The position numbers and the translations under genes were made by a program. A DNA stretch of 64,000 bases from Hymenobacter volaticus (GTDB lineage Bacteria; Bacteroidota; Bacteroidia; Cytophagales; Hymenobacteraceae), in NCBI RefSeq assembly GCF_022921055.1, contig NZ_CP095061.1, forward strand, positions 3,201,501 to 3,265,500. The letters run 5' to 3'. The notes under the pieces are model-generated. The model was given only the letters and a program-made list of their open reading frames with translations, ran no database searches and was not told the origin of the DNA. The number at the start of each line of letters is the position of its first letter. The stretch's first letter is position 1. Shown piece by piece: positions 2,179 through 19,712 of this stretch.

Positions 2179-5100
2179 ATGCCTCATTCTGCTGCTCCGA
2201 CGTCCACTGCTGCCGTGGCCATGCCGACAGATTTTTACCGTGCGCTTTTTGAAGATGCCTATGATGCTCAGTTGCTCTACGACGAGCAAGGCAACTTAGT
2301 CGACTGCAATAAAGCTGCGCTGCATCTGCTTGGCATTAGCCGCACCGACTTGCAGACCAATGGCCTGATGGCCTTAACCGTGCCAACTACCACCAACGGG
2401 CAGTGGCACACCGAAGCTACCTTGCGCGAAGCTATTCAGTACACCGCTCGCACTGGTAAAGAAGCATCACGGCCTTGGCAGGCTCGCCGTCCGAACCAAC
2501 GGAACTTGTCGGCCCAACTCACGTTGCGCCGCTTGGCATCACCCAACAGTCAGGTACAAGTCCTGCTCGGGTTGCGCGAAACCTCACCTGCTCATCAGAC
2601 CACCGAAACCGAGGTGCAGCAACTCGTACTCGACCGTACCCAGGAGCAGTTGCGGGACCTCCTTTCGCGCACCACGCTGAGCTATGTGCTTCTCGACCGG
2701 GAAGGCTTTGTAGTGGACGCCAACGATTTTTTTCTGGAGTTCACCGGCTACACCCGCGACGAAATTATTGATAAGCCTTACCACACTACGTTCTCGCCGA
2801 CGGCCGAGCGTGAGTTGCGCCTGCAATCCTTTTTGACTTGTATTCGGGAAGAACGGTTGCAGGATTTCTACGAACGCTCCCTGCTCACCAAGAACGGCCA
2901 GACGCGCATGGTGCACTGGCATGCCGAGTTTGCGCATGATGCCGCTAACAACATCACCGGTATCTTCTTGGTCGGGCGCGACTTCACGGAGCGCCACGTT
3001 GCGGCCCGGGCCCTCACTGACAACCGCAACCGCCTCCAAGACTTCCTCGACAACGCCCACGACCTCATCCAGAACCTGAGCATCGACAACCGGCTTTTGT
3101 TCGTCAACAAGGCTTGGAAAGAAAAGCTTGGTTACAGCGACGAAGACCTACCCAACCTCAGCCTTTCGGATGTAGTGCACCCTTATTACAAGGCCAAGCT
3201 GCTGTATCAGCTGCGCAACCTATACAAGGGGAGAAAGTCAACAAGCTTGAAACGGTATTCCTTACTAAAACCGGCAAGCCCGTTCACCTGATTGGCTCGA
3301 TTTCCTGCTCCTGGCAGGATAACGAGCCGGTAAGTACCCGCGCCATTCTGCACGACATCACCGACCGCATCAAGGCAGAGCGTTTGCAGAAAGTATACTA
3401 TAGCATTGCCAACCTGGCCATTAGCTCGAAAGACTTGCACTCCCTCTACGGTGCTATTCACCGGGAGCTGAGCAAGATCATCGAGACCAACAACTTCTAC
3501 ATTGCCCTCTGCGATGAAGCGCGGACGCAATTGCAGTTTGCATACTTCGTCGATCAAAATACGCCGGGTGAAGTAGGCGCCGTGTCGCGGCCTTTCTCTT
3601 CGGGCATGTCGGAGTACATTATCCGGACGGGGCGGCCGCAGTATATGCTACGTCACGAGTTGGAAGAGCTGATCAGCAGTGGTACCATCACGGCGTATGG
3701 CCTAATACCCGAAGTAATGCTTTGTTCCCCACTGAGCATTGGGGAGCGGATTATCGGGGTGATTGCCGTGCAGGACTACCATAAAGCGGATGCCTACGCT
3801 CCTACCGACCTGGAAATTCTGCACTTCATTTCCAACCAAGTAGCGTTGGCAATTGAACGCAAGCGCAATGAGGTTCAGATTCAAAAGCAGAACGCGCGTC
3901 TAAACGCCATTTTCGAAAGCGGGTCGCACTTAATGTGGTCTGTAGATACGCATTCGCGCCTCACTTCCTTCAACCGCAACTACGCCGCTTATTTCTTGCG
4001 TCGCAACGGGGTGTACCCGGCGCCAAACGTGAACTTGTTCCAGGCCGACTTGGCCATGATGGAGGAGGATGCACGCGAACTGTTTGTAGAAAACTACCGC
4101 AAGGCGTTTCAAGGGCAGCCTCAGCGCTTCGAGGTACGTCTGCAAGACGCCCGCGGCGCCGATTCGTGGCGCGAAATCTTCCTCAACCCCATCTACCTCG
4201 ACGACGGCTCGTTCGAGGAAATTTCGGGTATTGCCCACGACATCACCGAGAAGAAGCACTCCCAATTGGAGTTGGCCGCGCAGGAAGAGAAATTCCGCGC
4301 CATTTTCGAGTCGTTCCAGGACGTGTACTATCGCACCGATGACCAGGGTATTTTGACCTTGGTTAGCCCTTCGGTGCTGGACGTGTTGGGCTATGCCGCT
4401 GAGGATGTGGTGGGTACACCTATTTCCAACTATTACATTCACTCTCAAGAGCGCGACAACCTGCTACGCGTTATTCAGACGGATGGGGACGCGCGCAACT
4501 TCCCAATCGAAATGCGCCACAAGCAGGGTCACAACGTGAGCATGCTGGTGAATGCACGACTGGTTAGCGGTGGTATAACTGGCACCGAGGGGATTGCGCG
4601 TGACATCACCACGTTCAATCAAATGCAGATTGATTTGCGGCGGGCCAAGGATGAAGCCGAATCGGCGTTGGAAGCCAAAACACTGTTCTTGGCCAACATG
4701 AGTCATGAGCTGCGGACGCCCATGAACGGCATCATCGGCATGATTGACTTGCTGCACCAAACGGTAAGCAGCGAAGAACAAGAAGAATATGTAGACACGC
4801 TACGGAAGTCGAGCGACGCGCTATTGGCCATCCTAAACGACATCTTGGACCTCTCCAAGATTCAGGCCGGCAAGCTGCAACTCAACGAGGAGGGCATGGA
4901 TTTGCACTACACGCTCGAGAAAATTCATTCGCTCTTTGCCAACCGTGCTCAGCAAAAGCGTCTCACCTTCTCGTATCACATTGCGCCTAACACGCCGCGC
5001 TTCATTGTGACCGATGAAACCCGGTTGTTGCAGATACTCAGCAATCTTACTTCCAACGCTATCAAGTTCACGTCACAGGGCACAGTGAGCATCATTGTGT

Positions 5101-6221
5101 CGACGGATAAGCGTGAGGACGACGAGTACAAGCTGCGCATTGCGGTGCAGGACTCCGGCATTGGTATTTCCACGGAGAATGCCAAGCTGCTGTTCACCAA
5201 CTTCACGCAGCTTGACACTACGCCGACCAAGGCCTTCGGTGGCACAGGCTTAGGCCTAGCCATCAGCAAGCAACTAGCCGAATTATTAGGCGGCGACATT
5301 GGGGTGCTTTCCAATGAAGGCGATGGTAGCACGTTCTGGTTTACGTTGCGGTGCCGCGCGGCCTACAACGAAGACGAAATCGTGCAGGAGCGGCTGGCTT
5401 CGCGCGAGCGGGCTCCCGACATTACGCGCTTCGATACGGCACCGCGCGTGCTGCTTGTGGATGACAACCCCATCAACCTAAAAGTAGCCATCCGCCTGCT
5501 CGACAAGCTAGGCTGTGAAGTGGCCGTGGCCGACAACGGCTTTGAAGCCATCAGCAAAGCCACGGCGCCTGGCTCTAAGTTCGACTTGGTGTTCATGGAT
5601 ATTCAAATGCCGGAAATGGACGGCGTGGCCGCCATGCAGGAAATCCGTCGGCGCTTGGGGTCTGCTTGCCCGCCCGTGGTAGCCATGACGGCGTATTCCA
5701 TGAAGGAAGATGCCGAGCGCTTCGTACGCGAAGGCATGGACGACTACGTTTCCAAGCCCGTAAAAAGCCAGGATCTGCACTCGGTGCTGCGGCGCTGGGT
5801 AACAGCGGGGCCTGCCATGCGGCCTAGCTCCGCTGCGCTACCCGTCGCTGAAGCCGCTCCTGCCGCTGTGGAGGAACCGCCTTTTATTGATCCAGATGTG
5901 ATAGAACAGCTGCGACAATTGGGTGGCGCCGAATTTGCCGCTCAGCTCTACCAAGACTTCGAGGTGGAGGTAACTCAACTCCTTGATGAGGCCCAAGTAT
6001 TGGTTCAGAGTGGGCAGTACGAACAGATTTTACCACATTTGCACCAATTAAAGGGAACTGGCTTTACTTTAGGTTTAACTTTGCTGGCCGAGTGTGCCAA
6101 AGAGATAGAGCACAATTTGAAGAAAGGTGACCAAAGCACTGTAGAGCAGGATTTTCAAAAATTAATGGATTACTTCACTCGATTTAAAGCAGTCTATCCG
6201 GGCGTGACGAGTGACTTGTAA
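2179..6221 (+). CDS. Multi-PAS/GAF hybrid histidine kinase with receiver and HPt domains (one-base frameshift in this sequence)
   Basis: A signalling kinase of about 1347 residues once the frame is repaired. Domain order: three PAS domains (about 15-400), GAF (about 405-590), two further PAS domains (about 590-820), HisKA with SHELRTPMNG (His near 842), HATPase_c (GTGLGLAISKQLAELLGG near 1020), receiver (VLLVDDNPIN near 1090; phospho-acceptor Asp in VFMDIQMPEMDG near 1138) and a C-terminal HPt (HLHQLKGTG near 1287). There is no obvious membrane segment, so it is probably a cytosolic sensor. The frame breaks at a G4 run (3228-3231): frame 1 continues only to 3291, and the rest lies in frame 3. 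A fifth G restores LYKGEKVNKLETVFL through the PAS domain. I chose ATG 2179 over an upstream TTG at 2155. A single-domain receiver follows 69 bp downstream and is its likely partner. Confidence 0.9.
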
Positions 6222-6290
6222 GCGCCCGAAAACATCTTTTTAATTTTACTTTTTCAACCCGTACCCCTACATCATTACATTCTCTCTCCC

Positions 6291-6668
6291 ATGAGCGACG
6301 CGAAAACAATACTGATTGCCGAAGACAGCTCCGTCATCCTGAACTTGACTAAAAAAATTCTTGAGCTGCAGAAATACCGCATTGTGTCGGCCAAAAACGG
6401 GGGCGAAGTTCTCAAGCAAGTGGAAAGCCAGCCCATCGATTGCGTATTGATGGACATCAACATTCCCGTAAAGGACGGTATGGAATGCACCCGCGAGATT
6501 CGGGCTCATCAAGACGAGCGGATTTCTAAAATCCCAATTATTGCTATCACTGGCAACGCCAACAACTACTCGATGGAGCAATTCCGTGAGGCTGGCGTAA
6601 CCGATTACTTACCTAAACCACTTGATTTTGATGCACTTGTACGCGTAGTAAAGCAGTACGTAGGATAA
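6291..6668 (+). CDS. Single-domain response regulator (CheY-like receiver)
   Basis: A 125-residue stand-alone receiver with no output domain. The acidic pair E11-D12, phospho-acceptor D55 (LMDINIPVKDG), the conserved T/S region (IIAITGN) and the switch Lys in YLPKPL are all present, so it should be phosphorylated and act by protein-protein contact or as a phosphorelay shuttle. It starts 69 bp after the hybrid kinase with HPt domain on the same strand, and is therefore most simply that kinase's cognate receiver. A 32-bp perfect hairpin begins a few bases after its stop codon. Confidence 0.9.
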   Translation: MSDAKTILIAEDSSVILNLTKKILELQKYRIVSAKNGGEVLKQVESQPIDCVLMDINIPVKDGMECTREIRAHQDERISKIPIIAITGNANNYSMEQFREAGVTDYLPKPLDFDALVRVVKQYVG

Positions 6669-6674
6669 ATACCC

Positions 6675-6750
6675 GAATAGCTGAATGGCGAAATGGTTGG
6701 TTGTTCCGATAATTCGTAGAACAACCAACCATTTCGCCATTCAGCTATTC
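6675..6750 (+). terminator. Long perfect hairpin after the receiver gene
   Basis: Arms 6675-6706 and 6719-6750 are perfectly complementary over 32 bp, with a 12-nt loop. It begins 6 nt after the receiver stop and ends just before the next gene. There is no U-tract. It may act as a transcript 3'-end stabiliser or terminator, or as an RNase III site. Function is inferred. Confidence 0.6.
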
Positions 6751-6762
6751 AACAATTAGCCC

Positions 6763-7530
6763 ATGCAAATCACCTTTCTCGGCACGGGTACTTCGCAGGG
6801 TGTGCCCGTGATTGGGTGCCACTGTGCGGTGTGCCGCTCCCTGGATTACCGCGATAAGCGGCTACGGGTATCGGTGCACCTCGAAATCCAGGGCAAGAGC
6901 ATCATTATTGATTCAGGGCCCGATTTTCGGCAGCAGGTACTGCGCGAACGAGTCGACCGGCTGGATGCACTGGTGTTTACGCACGAGCATAAAGACCACA
7001 CAGCCGGCATGGATGACATCCGGGCTTACAATTTCAAGCAACAGCAAGATATGCCCGTGTATGCCGAGCCACGGGTGCTTGACCAGCTCCGGCGCGAATA
7101 CGCCTACATCTTCGCTGAACACAAGTACCCTGGAGTGCCGCAGGTACAAACCATTCCAATTACCGACGACACTACTTCCTTCGATGTGCAAGGAGTAACT
7201 TTCCATCCTATCCGGGCGCTGCATTACAAGCTGCCAGTGCTTGGGTTTCGGGTAGGCAACTTCACCTATGTGACGGATGCCAATCATCTAGAGCCGGAAT
7301 CGTTGGAGCGGATGCGAGGCTCGGAAATCATTGTGCTAAATGCCTTGCGTCACGAGCCGCATATCTCACACTTCTCCTTGACTGAGGCCATAGCCGTGCT
7401 CGAAGACCTCGCTCCGCGTCGGGCTTATCTCACGCACATCAGCCATTTGTTGGGTAAACACCGTGAGGTAGAGGCTACGCTGCCCGATTTCGTTCGGCTG
7501 GCCTATGACGGACTGCGGGTAGAGGTGTGA
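6763..7530 (+). CDS. MBL-fold metallo-hydrolase, PhnP-like
   Basis: A 255-residue metallo-beta-lactamase-fold hydrolase. The metal motif HEHKDH is at residues 74-79. An N-terminal GCHCAVC cluster (C19, C21, C24) resembles the structural zinc site of PhnP-type phosphodiesterases, and later conserved histidines lie in LRHEPHISHFSL and LTHISH. PhnP family members cleave cyclic phosphodiesters, but there are no phosphonate genes nearby, so the substrate is unknown; in this phylum the family is usually annotated only as an MBL hydrolase. The start is ATG 6763, 13 bp after the preceding hairpin. A 37-bp hairpin lies downstream, between this gene and the convergent lipoprotein gene. Confidence 0.85.
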   Translation: MQITFLGTGTSQGVPVIGCHCAVCRSLDYRDKRLRVSVHLEIQGKSIIIDSGPDFRQQVLRERVDRLDALVFTHEHKDHTAGMDDIRAYNFKQQQDMPVYAEPRVLDQLRREYAYIFAEHKYPGVPQVQTIPITDDTTSFDVQGVTFHPIRALHYKLPVLGFRVGNFTYVTDANHLEPESLERMRGSEIIVLNALRHEPHISHFSLTEAIAVLEDLAPRRAYLTHISHLLGKHREVEATLPDFVRLAYDGLRVEV

Positions 7531-15417: not shown

Positions 15418-15522
15418 CTTTTCTTCTGAACCCCGGAGCAACAGACGGGCCGCGCAACGGGCCAAACGGCCCGACGTGAAAAGTCGAAGTAGCGCGTACC
15501 TACGGCATCCGGAGAAGAAAAG
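15418..15522 (-). ncRNA. Array RNA unit 8 (no tRNA-like head, simple hairpin head)
   Basis: Outer stem 15508-15522 with 15418-15427 and 15433-15437 (15 bp, 5-nt bulge). Conserved TGCCGTA on the 5' side and GTCTGTTGC on the 3' side of the internal loop. Inner stem 15492-15500 with 15448-15455 is weaker (7 of 9 pairs). TACTTCG follows the inner 5' strand as in all units. In place of a tRNA-like head there is a GC-rich hairpin, 15459-15472 (GGGCC-GTTT-GGCCC). Last unit before rtcB. Confidence 0.7.
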
Positions 15523-15530
15523 CAGGATAC

Positions 15531-15599
15531 GGGAAGGGTGAAAAACGGATAGCCGCTTTGAGTATCGGACGAAGTAAGGCTAGCCTACGACACCTTCCC
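15531..15599 (-). ncRNA. Array RNA unit 7 (minimal, no tRNA-like head)
   Basis: Outer stem 15593-15599 with 15531-15537 (7 bp), 5' internal-loop sequence TGTCGTA, inner stem GGCTAGCC (15578-15585) with GGCTATCC (15547-15554), 7 of 8 paired. TACTTCG opens a 23-nt terminal loop where other units carry a tRNA-like domain. At 69 nt it is the shortest unit, a natural 'stem only' version of the family. Confidence 0.7.
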
Positions 15600-15616
15600 T
15601 TTCTCCTGTAATGAAA

Positions 15617-15756
15617 ACCTGACAGGGCTACAGCGCGCGAAGCCCACAAAATGTGCTCTAACCACTGAGCTACTGCCTGATAACGGCAGGTGGGACTTGA
15701 ACCCACGACCCCATTGCCCCAAACGAAGTACGGCTTCGCTACGGCACCTGTCAGGT
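15617..15756 (-). ncRNA. Array RNA unit 6 with permuted tRNA-like domain
   Basis: Outer stem 15747-15756 with 15617-15626 (10 bp, perfect). Inner stem GCGAAGCC (15732-15739) with GGCTTCGC (15637-15644), 8 of 8. Between the inner strands, in transcription order: TACTTCG, T-arm GTGGG-TTCAAGT-CCCAC (15690-15706), a short acceptor-like stem CTGCC/GGCAG (15685-15689 with 15673-15677) closed by 7 nt, and D-arm GCTC-AGTGGTTA-GAGC (15655-15670, with preceding TA). The T-arm precedes the D-arm, the reverse of a normal tRNA. Confidence 0.85.
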
Positions 15757-15771
15757 GTAACCTAATGTTAA

Positions 15772-15918
15772 TGTACGGGGCAACTAGCGCCAAGCCTCCT
15801 AATTAACCTGCTCTGCCAGTTGAGCTACAGCACCACCGAAGGGCAGTACCAGCAGGACTCGAACCTGCAACCTGGGCAATCGAAATGCGAAGTATGGCCC
15901 GGCTACGGCACCCGTACA
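15772..15918 (-). ncRNA. Array RNA unit 5 with permuted tRNA-like domain
   Basis: Outer stem TGTACGGG (15911-15918) with 15772-15779, 8 bp perfect. Inner stem GCCGGGCC (15896-15903) with GGCTTGGC (15789-15796): all eight pair, two as G-U. T-arm GCAGG-TTCGAGT-CCTGC (15852-15868); acceptor strands 15845-15851 and 15828-15834 pair at all seven positions with several G-U pairs, closed by a 10-nt loop; D-arm GCTC-AACTGGCA-GAGC (15810-15825). 3' internal-loop sequence GCTAGTTGC. Confidence 0.87.
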
Positions 15919-15927
15919 AGGCTAATT

Positions 15928-16070
15928 AATAGTGAGGTAAAATGCGCTGGCCGTTTTTTAGCGCGTCTACCAATTTCGCCACTCGTGGCTTACACCACGA
16001 GGCAGGACTCGAACCTGCACATCCTTACGGAACTACACCGAAGTATCGGCCACCTACGACACCCACTATT
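15928..16070 (-). ncRNA. Array RNA unit 4 with permuted tRNA-Leu-like domain
   Basis: Outer stem AATAGTG (16064-16070) with 15928-15934, 7 bp perfect. Inner stem GGTGGCCG (16047-16054) with CGGCCAGC (15946-15953), 7 of 8. The head looks like a class II (Leu-type) tRNA cut open at the anticodon: variable-arm-like TTCC-GTAA-GGAT, T-arm GCAGG-TTCGAGT-CCTGC (16002-16018), 3' acceptor CTCGTGG (15995-16001) directly abutting the T-stem, 6-nt loop, 5' acceptor CCACGAG (15982-15988), then D-arm TGGCGAAATTGGTAGACGC. The acceptor stem is 7 bp and perfect. Confidence 0.9.
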
Positions 16071-16090
16071 GTAACTTGGTTTCTGTGGAT

Positions 16091-16233
16091 TTCATACGGG
16101 GCAACAGGCGCCAGCCACTCGGTCTTGCCCTACCAATTTCCGGCGCCATGCTTCACAGCATCACTTCGGGAGTCGAACCCGCGACAAGACCTGTTGGGGG
16201 CGAAGTAAGGCAAGCTTACGGCACCCGTTTGAA
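16091..16233 (-). ncRNA. Array RNA unit 3 with permuted tRNA-like domain
   Basis: Outer stem TTCAAACGGG (16224-16233) with CCCGTATGAA (16091-16100), 9 of 10. Inner stem GCTTGCC (16209-16215) with GGCTGGC (16110-16116), 6 of 7. An extra stem GGTCTTG/CAAGACC (16185-16191 with 16121-16127) lies closer to the head, like an anticodon stem. T-arm 16166-16182, acceptor strands 16158-16164 and 16145-16151 (6 of 7 paired, 6-nt loop), Leu-like D-arm with GGAAATTGGTA (16127-16144). 3' loop GCCTGTTGC. Confidence 0.83.
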
Positions 16234-16249
16234 GATCAACAAGAAAAGT

Positions 16250-16377
16250 CTGCCGGGGCAACAGGCAACGAACCCTTTGCTCTACCAATTGAGCTACAGG
16301 CCCATGGTAAAAAATGCGTGGGCCTGATAAGAATCGAACTTATAACCGAAGTAAGGATCATTTACGACACCCGGCAG
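16250..16377 (-). ncRNA. Array RNA unit 2 with permuted tRNA-like domain
   Basis: The most compact complete unit. Outer stem CTGCCGGG (16370-16377) with 16250-16257, 8 bp perfect. Inner stem AATGATCC (16355-16362) with GGTTCGTT (16267-16274), 7 of 8. TACTTCG plus three bases lead to T-arm ATAAG-TTCGATT-CTTAT (16327-16343). The 3' acceptor CAGGCCC (16320-16326) abuts it and pairs perfectly with GGGCCTG (16297-16303) across a 16-nt loop. D-arm GCTC-AATTGGTA-GAGC (16279-16294) follows. The inner stem starts within four bases of the D-arm, exactly where an anticodon stem would. Confidence 0.9.
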
Positions 16378-16396
16378 GGTGATTTCTCAGCTGGGC

Positions 16397-16536
16397 CCAC
16401 CAGCTTCGGGGCAACAGGCGGCTGGCGTATTGTTCACGGCCGAAGCCGTGAAGTGGGACTCGAACCCGGCAACCCTTCCGAAGAATAGTTGCTTCACCAG
16501 CGAAGTAACGCCCGCCTACGGCACCCGAAGTGGTGG
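16397..16536 (-). ncRNA. Array RNA unit 1 with partial tRNA-like domain (D-arm missing)
   Basis: Outer stem 16524-16536 with 16397-16410 (13 bp, one bulged base). Inner stem GGCGGGCG (16509-16516) with CGCCAGCC (16420-16427), 7 of 8. A long variable-arm-like hairpin (16469-16492, with internal TTCG loop), a T-arm with weak stem (16453-16469, loop TTCGAGT), then an acceptor-like hairpin TTCACGGC-TTCG-GCCGTGAA (16433-16452) closed by a TTCG tetraloop. Only five bases separate this from the inner stem, so no D-arm fits. 3' loop GCCTGTTGC. Confidence 0.82.
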
Positions 16537-16547
16537 CTCAGCTGTTT

Positions 16548-16624
16548 GGAACGGCGAGCCGAAGCCACAATGCTCCGGCTACCTGCCGTTCCGGCTGGCG
16601 GCTGCCGCAAGCTGGTCAGCCGCC
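16548..16624 (-). promoter_or_regulatory. Structured leader of the RNA array (two hairpins)
   Basis: On the minus strand a hairpin GGCGGCTG/CAGCCGCC (16617-16624 with 16597-16604) is followed by a two-tier hairpin: GGAACGGC/GCCGTTCC (16585-16592 with 16548-16555), enclosing an 8-bp inner stem. Neither contains the CCGTA-N9-TACTTCG signature of the array units, so this is a leader or an unrelated RNA. Confidence 0.5.
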
Positions 16625-16645
16625 TTCCCAATTATAATAACGCAA
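16625..16645 (-). promoter_or_regulatory. Possible promoter of the RNA array
   Basis: In an A/T-rich stretch the minus strand reads TTATTATAATTGGG. It holds TATAAT (16631-16636), which is also one mismatch from the Bacteroidota -7 element TAnnTTTG. It sits directly upstream of the structured leader. I see no convincing -33 element, so the call is weak. Confidence 0.3.
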
Positions 16646-16732
16646 GAAAAATCATGATTATTGAGTGTTTTATGAAAAAAATGTTTCAGTTGTCTTCTGT
16701 CGAGGTTAGTGCTGGTATGTTTCGGGCAGTAA

Positions 16733-16778
16733 CCCGGGAGTGGCGGCAGCTTTCACTAGGTTAAATACCACTCCCGGG
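16733..16778 (-). terminator. Hairpin after the Ro60 gene
   Basis: Eleven perfectly paired bases (16733-16743 with 16768-16778) and a 24-nt loop, 12 bp past the Ro60 stop. No U-tract follows directly. It may terminate most Ro60 message or protect its 3' end, with read-through into the array. Confidence 0.5.
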
Positions 16779-16789
16779 CCGCATGATGT

Positions 16790-18316
16790 TTAAAAGGTTA
16801 TTGACTGGATTTCAGTGAGGGCGGAGCCACCATTTTCGAGGGCTTCCAACACGTTGAAAACTTTGTCGGACCAGCCGGCTATCAGGGCTACTCCGTCTTC
16901 GGCGCGAACGTCGAGGGGAGCGGTACCGTGACCGGCGAGGTCGAAGAGGTACAGGCGAGCCTGTGGGGCCACCGTACGGCGGTACTCCGCCCACTCGTGA
17001 GCAATAGTGGCACCATTGAGGTGGGTGTTCCAGAGCTGGCAGTCGGTGAAAATCATCACTTTATCGACTACCTCCCGGCGGCGGCGCAGGTCCTCAATTA
17101 CCAGGTAGCCGTTGGTGCTGTAGCCTACCTCGCCCTCGCGGCGGTAGAATTCGTCGACGTTGCCAAGCACCGGCCCGCGGGGCAGGCTGAGGCGCTTCCA
17201 CGTGTTGCCGAACATACCAGCCGTGACGTGCTGGCAGCGGCTTTGCAGCAACATGCCGAGCACCAAGCCCACGTCATAGAGCTGCACTTTGCTGCGCGCC
17301 GACACCGGTTGCTGCATCGAGCCCGACACGTCGCAGGCGACTACTACGCGGGTGGCGGGGCCGAAACCGCGCAAGTTGGCGGCGCTGTGCGTTATGGCAT
17401 CTTCCAGAGCGGCAAGCACCGCTGCTACGTGGCCGTTTTGCAAGGCTTTCACCTCACGGTAAGCGGCCAAATAGCGGAAAGGCAACTGCTTGCTGCGCGC
17501 TACTGCCGTCCGGTCGGAGAGCGTGGTGCATACTTCCACCACCGCCTCGGCCGACACGTCGGCTTCGAGGATATTGCGTAGGTTGCGCAGCAAGGCCATG
17601 TAGCCAAGCTTGCCGCTGGCAATCAACGTCTCCCACTTTTCGCGGAAAGCCGCCGTACGTTCCACTTGCGTGGCGTAGGTAGCCTGCCCGAGCGCCGACA
17701 ACTCGGTTTCCCACGTGTAGGGCGTGGGCAAGGTTCCGGCCACCAACTGGTTGAAGAGAACCTGCTGCGCCTCGTTGCGGGGCGTGGGGTGCACCAAGAA
17801 GAGTGCGTCGCGCAACCGCACGGCCCCGGCCCGGTCGTACTTGGCCAGCTGGTAGCCGTCGAAACGGTTGAAGCTGGCGGCCAGACCTTTCTGCAACTGC
17901 TTGGAGAGGCGGTTGAGGGTTTTCACCCCTGCCCGCTGATTTGCTTGGGCGTAGCAAGCCAGCAACTCGGTGATTTCGTCGGGCCGCTGCACGATGCGGG
18001 CCACCAAGCGGCTCACTAGGTTGTCGCCGCGGTGCAAACGCGCCAGTTCTACGGCCAGCACCAAAGGCACCGAGCGCATGTACATCTGCTCGCGGGCGTA
18101 CACCGCCAACTGCGCCACAAACGTGGGGTCGTTGCGAGCCACCAACTCACGCAACCGAGTTAGCCGCGTATCGGCTTTCTCGTAGAACTGGTCGCTGAGG
18201 GCGGCCGTAGCCACAGCAGCGTACAATTCCAACTGGGGCGTGAGCGTGAAGGCGGCAGCGCCTTCGTGGTTCACAGTGTTGGGTTGGGCTTTGCGGAAAG
18301 TAAAGTTGAAACGCAT
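16790..18316 (-). CDS. Ro60/Rsr-like TROVE-domain RNA-binding protein
   Basis: Ro60 orthologues are ring-shaped HEAT-repeat proteins that bind Y RNAs on their outer face and misfolded RNA ends in the central hole. In bacteria (Rsr) they pair with Y RNAs and exonucleases, or sit in RNA-repair operons with RtcB. 508 residues. The TROVE region (about 1-330) begins MRFNFTFRKAQPNTVNHEG and shows the paired-helix pattern. The C-terminal vWA-like domain has the MIDAS motif DVSGSMQQP and later MIFTDCQLW. I chose the ATG at 18314-18316; a GTG at 18370 would add an unlikely Pro-rich 18 residues. It lies between the PcfJ-like gene and the RNA array, all on the same strand, so its RNA partners are very likely the array units. 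Confidence 0.93.
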   Translation of the reverse strand: MRFNFTFRKAQPNTVNHEGAAAFTLTPQLELYAAVATAALSDQFYEKADTRLTRLRELVARNDPTFVAQLAVYAREQMYMRSVPLVLAVELARLHRGDNLVSRLVARIVQRPDEITELLACYAQANQRAGVKTLNRLSKQLQKGLAASFNRFDGYQLAKYDRAGAVRLRDALFLVHPTPRNEAQQVLFNQLVAGTLPTPYTWETELSALGQATYATQVERTAAFREKWETLIASGKLGYMALLRNLRNILEADVSAEAVVEVCTTLSDRTAVARSKQLPFRYLAAYREVKALQNGHVAAVLAALEDAITHSAANLRGFGPATRVVVACDVSGSMQQPVSARSKVQLYDVGLVLGMLLQSRCQHVTAGMFGNTWKRLSLPRGPVLGNVDEFYRREGEVGYSTNGYLVIEDLRRRREVVDKVMIFTDCQLWNTHLNGATIAHEWAEYRRTVAPQARLYLFDLAGHGTAPLDVRAEDGVALIAGWSDKVFNVLEALENGGSALTEIQSITF

Positions 18317-18411: not shown

Positions 18412-19712
18412 TTAGCTCAGCAAATGCTTGGGAATCAGCAGGCGGTTGTCGGCTGCCCAACGCTGTATCCAGGCGCCTTCCTCGTCGTTGGGGCGGCGGT
18501 TGAACAGTCCCCGGGCTTGCACTATTGTGCGGTTGGCCTGCACTTCAAGCGTTACGGCACGGGTACCGTTGAGAGTAAGCGAGAAAATAGCGCTACGCCC
18601 TCGCCGACACGAATCGAAGTAGGAAGCCACGCAGTGGCGCAGGGTCCGACCCTCGTCGAGCAGGTTCCGGTAGGTGCGCAACTGGGTGATGCGCACCGGG
18701 CACTTGCTCCCCCAGAAAAATCCGGTATTGGCAGCGGCACCCAGGTGGTATCTAGCATCAAGCTGGTTTCAGGCACCCGGTATGGAGCCTGGGCTAGTTG
18801 ACGGTGCCACTGCGCCGTTTGCGTCAGTACACTGCTCATCGAGCGACCCTTCAGCGAAAAGCCCGGTTGAGCTGGTTCGCCATTTAGGCCCACCGCGCGC
18901 TTTTGGTGAATCCAGTCGCACACAGGCCCTAATTGATAGGGGTCGACCATGGATGCCGTGGCAAAGAAGTCGACCACTCGTAGCCAGAACTCGTCGTCGC
19001 GCCCCAGATAGCGGCTCAGACGGGAATCGAGCACTGGCCCTAGCCAAGCCAGCTGGTCGCGGGCAGCGAGTTGGGCGTAGCGCAAGGCATGGAGAAAGGA
19101 GTAACCCGCCGGGGCTAGGCGTAGGTGGTGCTCTACCTTGCGGGTAAGTGGCACCGGCAACCCCCGAAAGGTGCGTAGCGCCCCACCCCGCCCTAGGTGC
19201 ACGGTTAGCTCGGCAATGTTGAGGCCGTCGTGCAGGCGGCCGGCAGTCCAGGAGTTAATAACCCAGGCAGGCACGTCGCCATACTGGTCGAAGAGGTGGC
19301 GCACCAGGCTTTCCAGCTGCCGAAAGGGGTTCCGGCTGCGGGGCTGCCAGTCGGTTAGCTCCCGGCAACGCTGGGGCAGCCACTGGGCCACCGCCGCCAA
19401 GGCCGGGGCCAGTTCGGGGCGCCAGAGTAGTTCGGTACGCTTGGCGGCCAGGGCGAGCAGCAGTTTGGCGCACTGGCTACGCTGCGACTCTTTTTGTTCG
19501 TGAATGCAGTGCCGATAGAACTGCGCCAGCACCGAATTCTCGCCTAACTGAGCATTGATGACGGGCAGGGGGCCGTAGTGCGAAAACAGGTATTCCACCT
19601 GTTGGGGGAGCGGCCAGCGGCGCCAGTCGAGGCGCTTGGCCGCAGAAAGTACTATGCGCGCTTGCTGGGCTTCCCAGACGGCATGGGGTAAGGGTTTGAG
19701 ACGGTTGGACAT
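18412..19712 (-). CDS. PcfJ-domain-like protein (one-base frameshift in this sequence)
   Basis: About 433 residues after repair. The C-terminal part has the PcfJ-like pattern: LRHCVASYFDSC, then SLTLNGTRAVTLEVQAN, then IVQARGLFNRRPNDEE and IQRWAADNRLL. PcfJ-like proteins occur on conjugative plasmids and in many genomes. Their biochemical role is not established, so I propose none. The frame breaks at a C5 run on the plus strand (18709-18713; G5 in the gene). Adding one base joins PDFSGG to SKCPVRITQLRTYRNLLDEG without stops. It starts at ATG 19710-19712 and ends 95 bp before the Ro60 ATG, same strand, so it is probably the first gene of this operon. Confidence 0.75.

Follow-up and report, generated by a model that had tools for sequence, protein, structure and literature searches.

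According to the accessible portions of two sources, a bacterial Y RNA tethers the Ro60 orthologue Rsr to PNPase, and the gene of the Y RNA YrlA (Rfam RF02553) adjoins the genes of Ro60/Rsr and RtcB (PMC7790460; PMC8394870). In Salmonella, Ro60, Y RNAs and RtcB are neighbours in the operon rsr-yrlBA-rtcBA, and, as far as the available text of the source extends, a decoy role of YrlA or competitive inhibition of an anticodon nuclease was raised, religation of tRNA halves by RtcB was discussed, and YrlA fragments were not seen under conditions in which tRNA is cut by an anticodon nuclease (Hughes et al., 2020; PMC7790460). In jumbo phages, a TROVE protein is described in the available part of the source as an RNA-repair platform with a tRNA-like partner (PMC7824862). 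The locus reported here lies in a stretch of 64,000 nucleotides from the Bacteroidota species Hymenobacter volaticus (NZ_CP095061.1, positions 3,201,501 to 3,265,500; hereafter the window, whose own numbering is used), and it contains eight tandem RNA units between a Ro60 gene and an RtcB gene. Comparison with relatives indicates that the units are almost certainly Y RNAs of the YrlA kind; they would probably be bound by the adjacent Ro60 through their conserved stem, internal loop and TACTTCG element, and most of them carry circularly permuted tRNA-like heads, of which many in the family appear to keep an anticodon arm that is split by the Y RNA stem.

Similar to the Salmonella operon, Ro60, Y RNAs and RtcB are adjacent in the window: the Ro60 gene, the array and the RtcB gene all lie on the same strand with the array in the middle, and the Ro60 protein belongs to its family by a TROVE and a vWA domain, both over the cut-off (PF05731, PF25045). 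Unlike that operon, the locus contains far more RNAs, and a search of the window's genome at E 0.001 returned neither RtcA (PF01137) nor RtcR (PF06956), with an E. coli control positive for both, so that the window does not represent the Salmonella-type operon in full. Eight exact copies of the motif TGYCGTA-N9-TACTTCG (14 fixed letters) with identical inner spacing are found on the minus strand within 15423-16533, their 5' ends at 16523, 16369, 16223, 16061, 15910, 15746, 15592 and 15507; in the whole 7.1-Mb assembly the exact motif occurs in these eight copies only, and the next best carry one mismatch. All units follow one plan consisting of an outer stem, an internal loop in which TGYCGTA faces a 3' strand around CTGTTG, an inner stem and TACTTCG. 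A first-pass annotation, made from the letters of the window, had described eight tandem minus-strand units that are Y-RNA-like, bear diverse circularly permuted tRNA-like heads and stand as a block between Ro60 and RtcB. The number and strand of the units are borne out by the motif copies and by the covariance model described next, their nature by this model together with YrlA matches and structural parses, and the position of the block by the Pfam domains of the flanking proteins.

The covariance model, R1, was built from 40 units, one per locus, taken from 40 of the 46 loci with group-B units (39 relatives and unit 5 of the window). It recovers all eight window units with 142 to 38.4 bits, while the best other match in the window reaches 9.5 bits. 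RNAalifold returned from the 40-unit alignment the outer stem, the inner stem, the T-arm, the acceptor and the D-arm, with both-side changes in 23 of 37 pairs; the long Y RNA stem (helices 1 and 2) shows both-side changes in 13 of its 19 pairs, and the inner stem of eight base pairs noted by the first-pass annotation is among the covarying parts. With the anticodon pairs introduced below added (40 units, 39 distinct), both-side changes are found in 24 of 42 pairs, 94.5% of the cells are paired compared with 80.6% in shuffled rows, and the covariation score is 0.431 compared with 0.055-0.144 when the partners are slid by one to three columns, a comparison which is favoured by design as the structure was drawn from those same 40 rows.

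Arrays of this type accompany Ro60 throughout the family. In a sample of 150 family genomes, TROVE was found in 66 including the window's own, and 66 loci were taken from the other 65 genomes. A motif search tolerating differences (237 of the 378 units, from 64 loci, show none) detected 3-9 units beside Ro60 in 64 of the 66 loci with a median of 6, and the count of eight, which had been taken as special, is thereby an ordinary one. A TROVE fragment (L065) and a second TROVE paralogue (L066) lack a convincing array and were counted as misses. The first-pass annotation had named an absence of covariation, or of the array in relatives keeping Ro60 and RtcB, as what would speak against it; the helices covary and the relatives hold arrays. 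R1 yields 362 matches at E 1e-3 or better over the 66 family loci and the window, and over these 67 loci a permuted head was parsed strictly in 166 of 389 units and, by a loose parse with GG in the D-loop, in 227 of 389. RtcB is encoded downstream in 53 of the 66 loci. At two loci an extra unit adjoins RtcB more than 1 kb from the main array (L050, 5209-5351; L091, 1836-1980), and at another an Rfam Flavo-1 match lies just downstream of the Ro60 gene on the opposite strand (L206, 3046-3127, plus).

Beyond the family, 296 genomes of the phylum were searched, and R1 matches at E 1e-10 or better were obtained in 19, each of which is also one of the 24 TROVE genomes. Of these 19, 16 belong to other genera, and the window's own genome and G011 had contributed to R1. 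Around TROVE, 19 of the 21 TROVE genomes outside the genus show an R1 match at E 1e-3 or better, and 40 of these 52 matches were carried into further analysis. A similarity search with Ro60 gave 131 loci, of which the best 80 were used (44 Hymenobacter and 36 not so labelled, the latter including Flavobacterium, Pedobacter, Sphingobacterium, Chitinophaga and Chryseobacterium), and 33 of the 36 have R1 matches at E 1e-4 or better. Related Ro60 loci are present, for example, in the cultured close relatives Hymenobacter norwichensis DSM 15439 (L228) and H. telluris BT186 (L229). Weak R1 matches (E 0.001) are widespread, being present in 231 of the 296 phylum genomes and in 19 of 20 TROVE-negative family genomes, and the statement on co-occurrence is limited to E 1e-10 or better because such weak matches also fall on tandem tRNA pairs. 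The TROVE-negative genome nearest in score (G420, 4.3e-10) has its match on two tandem tRNA-Thr genes, and tandem tRNA genes also underlie the match of G082 (8.2e-8) and one match of G036 (6.6e-11, partial). Among the TROVE-negative family genomes (20 of 84 tested), G036 alone has a full-length R1 match at E 1e-10 or better; at this locus (L224; G036:C30:88000-98000, about 4124-6828), end pieces of Ro60 from which residues about 107-485 are gone are accompanied by four weaker units (54.8 to 22 bits) and by an RtcB gene that looks intact. This single case would be consistent with an array that decays once Ro60 has been lost.

The segment from TACTTCG to the T-arm contains a hairpin of three base pairs with a loop of seven nucleotides, followed by two bases whose partners are the two that come next after D-arm position 26. 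The resulting anticodon stem has five base pairs, and the Y RNA stem is inserted into its 5' strand, between tRNA positions 28 and 29. The 53 group-B units come from 46 loci and reduce to 35 distinct rows; of the 105 hairpin cells in these rows, 99 are Watson-Crick paired in register compared with 0-32 at eight slid registers. For a count over the family, the 166 of 389 units with a fully parsed T-arm, acceptor and D-arm were used, 34 of which were too short and set aside, and the register was chosen by pairing alone. All five pairs form in 67 of the 132 testable heads, against a shuffled mean of 1.66; of these 67 complete arms, 66 have U33, 66 a purine at position 37 and 65 both (14% in shuffles), and of the 44 distinct arms left after identical ones are merged, 43 have U33 and 43 a purine at 37. 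The complete arms comprise four hairpin types (CGA/TCG, GCA/TGC, TCG/CGA, GCG/CGC), eight combinations at 27-28/42-43 and 20 triplets. The same test in other genera and viral contigs, whose loci are not in R1, used 67 of 91 R1 matches (the remaining 24 are mostly weaker or partial) and gave all five pairs in 18 of 37 heads versus 0.42 in shuffles; among these 18, U33 is found in 16 and a purine at position 37 in 15, while 14 have both. Seven of 34 distinct loops are shared, letter for letter, with anticodon loops of host tRNAs (those for Asp, Asn, Leu, Lys, His, Pro and Gln), compared with 2.0 by column permutation, and G36 precedes G37 in 16 of 17 loops with G37, as it does in all six such host loops. 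These results argue that the anticodon arm is very probably real.

Within the window, unit 5 forms all five split-arm pairs with the triplet UCG, an anticodon found in none of the host tRNAs detected, and unit 6 forms four of the five. The replacement of the anticodon stem by the inner stem, as proposed at first, agrees with the YrlA-type unit 2 and has to be given up for the many heads that keep a covarying arm. The TTCRANT loop is present in units 1-6, in agreement with the six T-arms reported initially, except that the T-stem of unit 1 is weak, with three pairs in its fold, and no parser accepted a head there. A full head including the D-arm was parsed strictly in units 2, 4, 5 and 6, where the D-arms with GG are clear, and the fifth one reported, that of unit 3, is obtained by the looser parse only. 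In unit 5, positions 15844-15912 score 28.9 bits with the Rfam tRNA model, just under its gathering score of 29, ARAGORN reads 15842-15912 as tRNA-Arg(tcg), and the split pairs are formed by 15874-15875 (CC) and 15807-15808 (GG). The features of the locus are collected in the table.

Table. Array units, structural elements of unit 5 and flanking genes in the window.
Feature	Position	Strand	Description and support
Unit 1	16396..16533	-	Y RNA with long variable-arm-like hairpin, TTCGAGT loop on weak stem, acceptor-like hairpin, no D-arm; R1 51.9 bits
Unit 2	16243..16379	-	YrlA-type head with T-arm, acceptor hairpin and D-arm, too short for an anticodon arm; R1 75.8 bits
Unit 3	16086..16233	-	Permuted head with T-arm and acceptor hairpin, D-arm by looser parse only; R1 66.5 bits
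Unit 4	15922..16071	-	tRNA-Leu-like head (Leu-type D-arm and variable arm); R1 68.8 bits
Unit 5	15765..15920	-	Class-I head with split anticodon arm; R1 142 bits (itself a row of the R1 alignment)
Unit 5, local anticodon hairpin	15876..15888	-	GCA-TTTCGAT-TGC; triplet TCG at 15883-15881, U33, A37; ARAGORN anticodon at the same bases
Unit 5, T-arm	15852..15868	-	From sequence; helix 5 of the alignment
Unit 5, acceptor hairpin	15828..15851	-	Both strands, loop-closed; helix 6 of the alignment, both-side changes in 8 of 9 pairs
Unit 5, D-arm	15810..15827	-	GG in loop; from the parse; helix 7 of the alignment
Unit 6	15612..15756	-	Class-I head, Pro-like loop TTTGGGG, anticodon-arm pairs 4 of 5; R1 104.3 bits; Rfam YrlA 35 bits
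Unit 7	15523..15602	-	Y RNA stem, no T-arm, no tRNA-like head; R1 39 bits
Unit 8	15423..15517	-	Y RNA stem and small GC hairpin, no T-arm, no tRNA-like head; R1 38.4 bits
Ro60 orthologue, 526 residues	16790..18370	-	Upstream of the array; Pfam PF05731 (TROVE) E 4.5e-29, PF25045 (Ro60 vWA) E 3.4e-7
RtcB RNA ligase, 467 residues	13935..15338	-	Downstream of the array; Pfam PF01139 E 2.2e-83, 281.3 bits

The heads are not of one kind. In unit 4, the best host match of both the D-arm and the variable arm is tRNA-Leu, and its string TGGCGAAATTGGTAGACGCGCT recurs in the host tRNA-Leu(cag). Across the family, 12 heads have Leu-like D-arms, with tRNA-Leu as best host match in 12 of 12 and a class-II variable arm in 9 of 12. 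Ser-like D-arms are present in 18 heads, with tRNA-Ser as best host match in 15 of 18, a class-II variable arm in 3 of 18 and class I in 15 of 18 (by automatic match), so that this assignment is one of the D-arm alone; a search for variable-arm hairpins as a Ser-like mark did not separate the Ser-like from the class-I heads and was left unused. TAGCTCA-type D-arms are present in 125 heads; 34 of these were too short for the test, and the 91 tested all have a class-I variable loop. Heads of YrlA type, which leave no space for an anticodon arm, are found in 34 loci including the window.

The relation to YrlA can be stated from both sides. The Rfam model finds unit 2 with E 5.8e-9 (46.9 bits), unit 6 with E 1.7e-5 and unit 5 with E 4.3e-5, and its gathering score of 69 bits is reached by no window unit, nor in the 17 family loci, out of 66, that were searched with the model; in a Bacteroidota relative (L219), two units reach it with 73.2 and 73.0 bits, and R1 matches at both places, which ties window-type units and YrlA together. 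Since the window scores remain below gathering, the array is placed outside RF02553 as curated, though homologous to it. The Rfam consensus has, like the window, an outer stem, an internal loop, an inner stem, a short stem, a T-arm, an acceptor hairpin and a D-arm, and as the order of T-arm, acceptor hairpin and D-arm is already contained in it, the circular permutation is not new. The YrlA-type lack of an anticodon arm, in which the short stem is joined to the inner stem, fits unit 2, which is of YrlA type, but neither unit 5 nor 66 other heads. Window-type arrays further differ from YrlA in the 3-9 units per locus, in the letters of the internal loop (TGYCGTA and TACTTCG) and in the many heads with an anticodon arm or with Leu-like or Ser-like features. 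A literature search returned no description of anticodon-bearing or arrayed Y RNAs, with the primary YrlA papers outside its reach and an earlier mention possible there. Two aspects appear to be new: arrays as the rule where the family has Ro60, with related units beside Ro60 across Bacteroidota, and the split anticodon arm kept in many heads.

The viral loci share with the jumbo phages, and with the window, a TROVE protein next to tRNA-like RNA, and they differ from the window by holding one and two units only. In a viral collection, two Y-RNA-like units (L309, 5572-5885) and one unit (L307, 5498-5649) stand beside Ro60, and two of the three viral contigs found carry R1 matches; Ro60 relatives were seen in 95 phage records. 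One viral-contig head has a complete anticodon arm with the loop CTTGTAA, which equals that of the host tRNA-Thr(tgt).

How tRNA parts came into Y RNAs is suggested by genes that lie in tandem. Tandem tRNA genes match YrlA and R1 weakly, since a 3' half followed by the 5' half of the neighbouring gene resembles the permuted order, and if a Y RNA stem had captured such a tRNA pair, the topology of the heads would be accounted for. In the window's own genome, a weak YrlA match covers two neighbouring tRNA genes (G000:C1:2181793-2181942), a hint at the origin of the heads. Downstream of Ro60 in L214 (3227-3922), ordinary genes for tRNA-Met, tRNA-Arg and tRNA-Lys are interspersed with matches to a Y-RNA-like stem, which begin at the ends of the tRNA-Arg and tRNA-Lys genes; this locus is possibly a snapshot of tRNA parts entering Y RNAs.

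In the vicinity of the array, a PcfJ-like domain (PF14284, frame 18412-18696) is encoded on the minus strand directly upstream of Ro60 and overlaps a longer minus-strand frame (18552-19712) without Pfam match; the C-terminal part was detected in 23 of the 80 loci, in each case upstream and on the same strand, and all 23 belong to the 44 Hymenobacter loci. Between the Ro60 stop and unit 1 (16540-16790, minus), two inverted repeats were recognised by eye around CCCGGGAGTGG / CCACTCCCGGG and GGAACGGC / GCCGTTCC.

While the predicted architecture of the heads is shown by comparison, their function has to be approached more cautiously. The acceptor end is loop-closed in the heads of units 2-6 (the head of unit 1 is partial), so that they could not be charged as they stand. 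The heads may together offer a range of tRNA look-alikes, which would either keep tRNA-acting enzymes at the Ro60 ring or compete for such enzymes. The likeliest clients would be anticodon nucleases, to which the heads would serve as decoy or bait, and RtcB, whose part would be to religate tRNA, or bait, that has been cut. The retained rules of the anticodon loop, the changing triplet and the class-II copies would fit enzymes that read whole tRNAs, such as anticodon nucleases, modification enzymes and RtcB, and the locus may be a multi-RNA Ro60/RtcB repair or surveillance system, as first proposed. We favour such a decoy or adaptor role over a plain tether, with a probability that we place at the midpoint or slightly below it, and regard the explanation as a whole, mechanism included, as evenly poised. 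Several observations weigh against it. Units 7 and 8 are headless, the split arm is absent from the single-sequence minimum-energy fold of unit 5, at least one of the five pairs is missing in 65 of the 132 testable heads and 34 more have no room for the arm, and the Ser-likeness is one of the D-arm. Where a locus has at least two anticodon-arm heads, their triplets differ (22 of 22 loci), which is weak evidence because the two unit types differ in triplet preference anyway; as the heads counted here were chosen for U33, for a purine at 37 and for a pairing score of 4 or more, they provide no evidence for those marks. RtcB was not found in the fetched stretch of 13 of the 66 loci, three of which are short stretches, and the other ten, among them the array-less TROVE fragment L065, have no RtcB within several kilobases. 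Finally, that YrlA fragments went unseen in Salmonella under tRNA-cutting conditions, as far as the available text of that study reports it, disfavours the bait version.

Four other explanations were weighed. The heads might be ordinary Y RNA tethers, as in Deinococcus, which merely dock Ro60 to PNPase or a similar partner, with copy number and diversity arising by duplication and drift. The PNPase tether cited at the outset, the fact that T-arm, D-arm and acceptor are the part common to the heads, and unit 2 with no anticodon arm all agree with this, but drift leaves unexplained why U33 on the one hand and purine 37 on the other are each retained in 66 of 67 complete arms, together with a covarying stem and a varying triplet, and why Leu-like D-arms mostly go with class-II variable arms; we consider the plain tether a somewhat doubtful, though serious, alternative. 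Recruitment of RtcB, by which heads imitating a tRNA broken in the anticodon arm with its halves held would bring RtcB to the Ro60 ring for the repair of tRNA halves, is suggested by the downstream RtcB of most loci, by strands that enter the head at the anticodon arm, the site of tRNA cutting, and by the religation of tRNA halves discussed in the accessible text of PMC7790460. Arrays nevertheless persist at loci with no RtcB nearby, and many isotypes are not required by recruitment alone, which makes it an unlikely sole account.

That the units are functionless remnants of decayed tRNAs or Y RNAs would accommodate the headless units 7 and 8 and the weak model matches of adjacent tRNA genes, but it is very improbable in view of the covariation, of the conservation beside Ro60 across the phylum and of the weaker units in the one examined genome with a broken Ro60 (G036). 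In permuted tRNA genes of algae and archaea, the 3' half precedes the 5' half as it does in these heads, and in some algae circular precursors mature to working tRNAs. The T-arm preceding the D-arm, the kept anticodon arm and the adjacent ligase recall such genes; unlike them, the heads as they stand have an acceptor that is closed, mostly by short loops (3-8 nucleotides in 138 of the 166 strictly parsed heads, with pairing extended and one mismatch allowed), and their opened arm runs into the conserved Y RNA stem, for the excision of which we know of no bacterial splicing enzyme. As a source of tRNA, permuted genes were rejected in view of ordinary host tRNA genes for all 20 amino acids, and this reading is scarcely credible.

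The family shows how the fold of a tRNA can be mounted on the stem of another RNA, with an opening made in the anticodon stem and the acceptor end closed, while its loop keeps U33 and a purine at 37. If the decoy or adaptor role of the heads holds, each head with an evolving anticodon arm would predict a client by its anticodon. More speculatively, and with a probability clearly on the low side, Bacteroidota may equip Ro60 with acceptor-capped tRNA mimics, the fullest of which would extend to the anticodon arm, whose anticodons are exchangeable and which serve as decoys or baits for the anticodon nucleases of toxins and phage defence, to be religated by RtcB when cut; such an array would be an RNA shield for the tRNA pool, the specificity of which is set by the triplets of the array.

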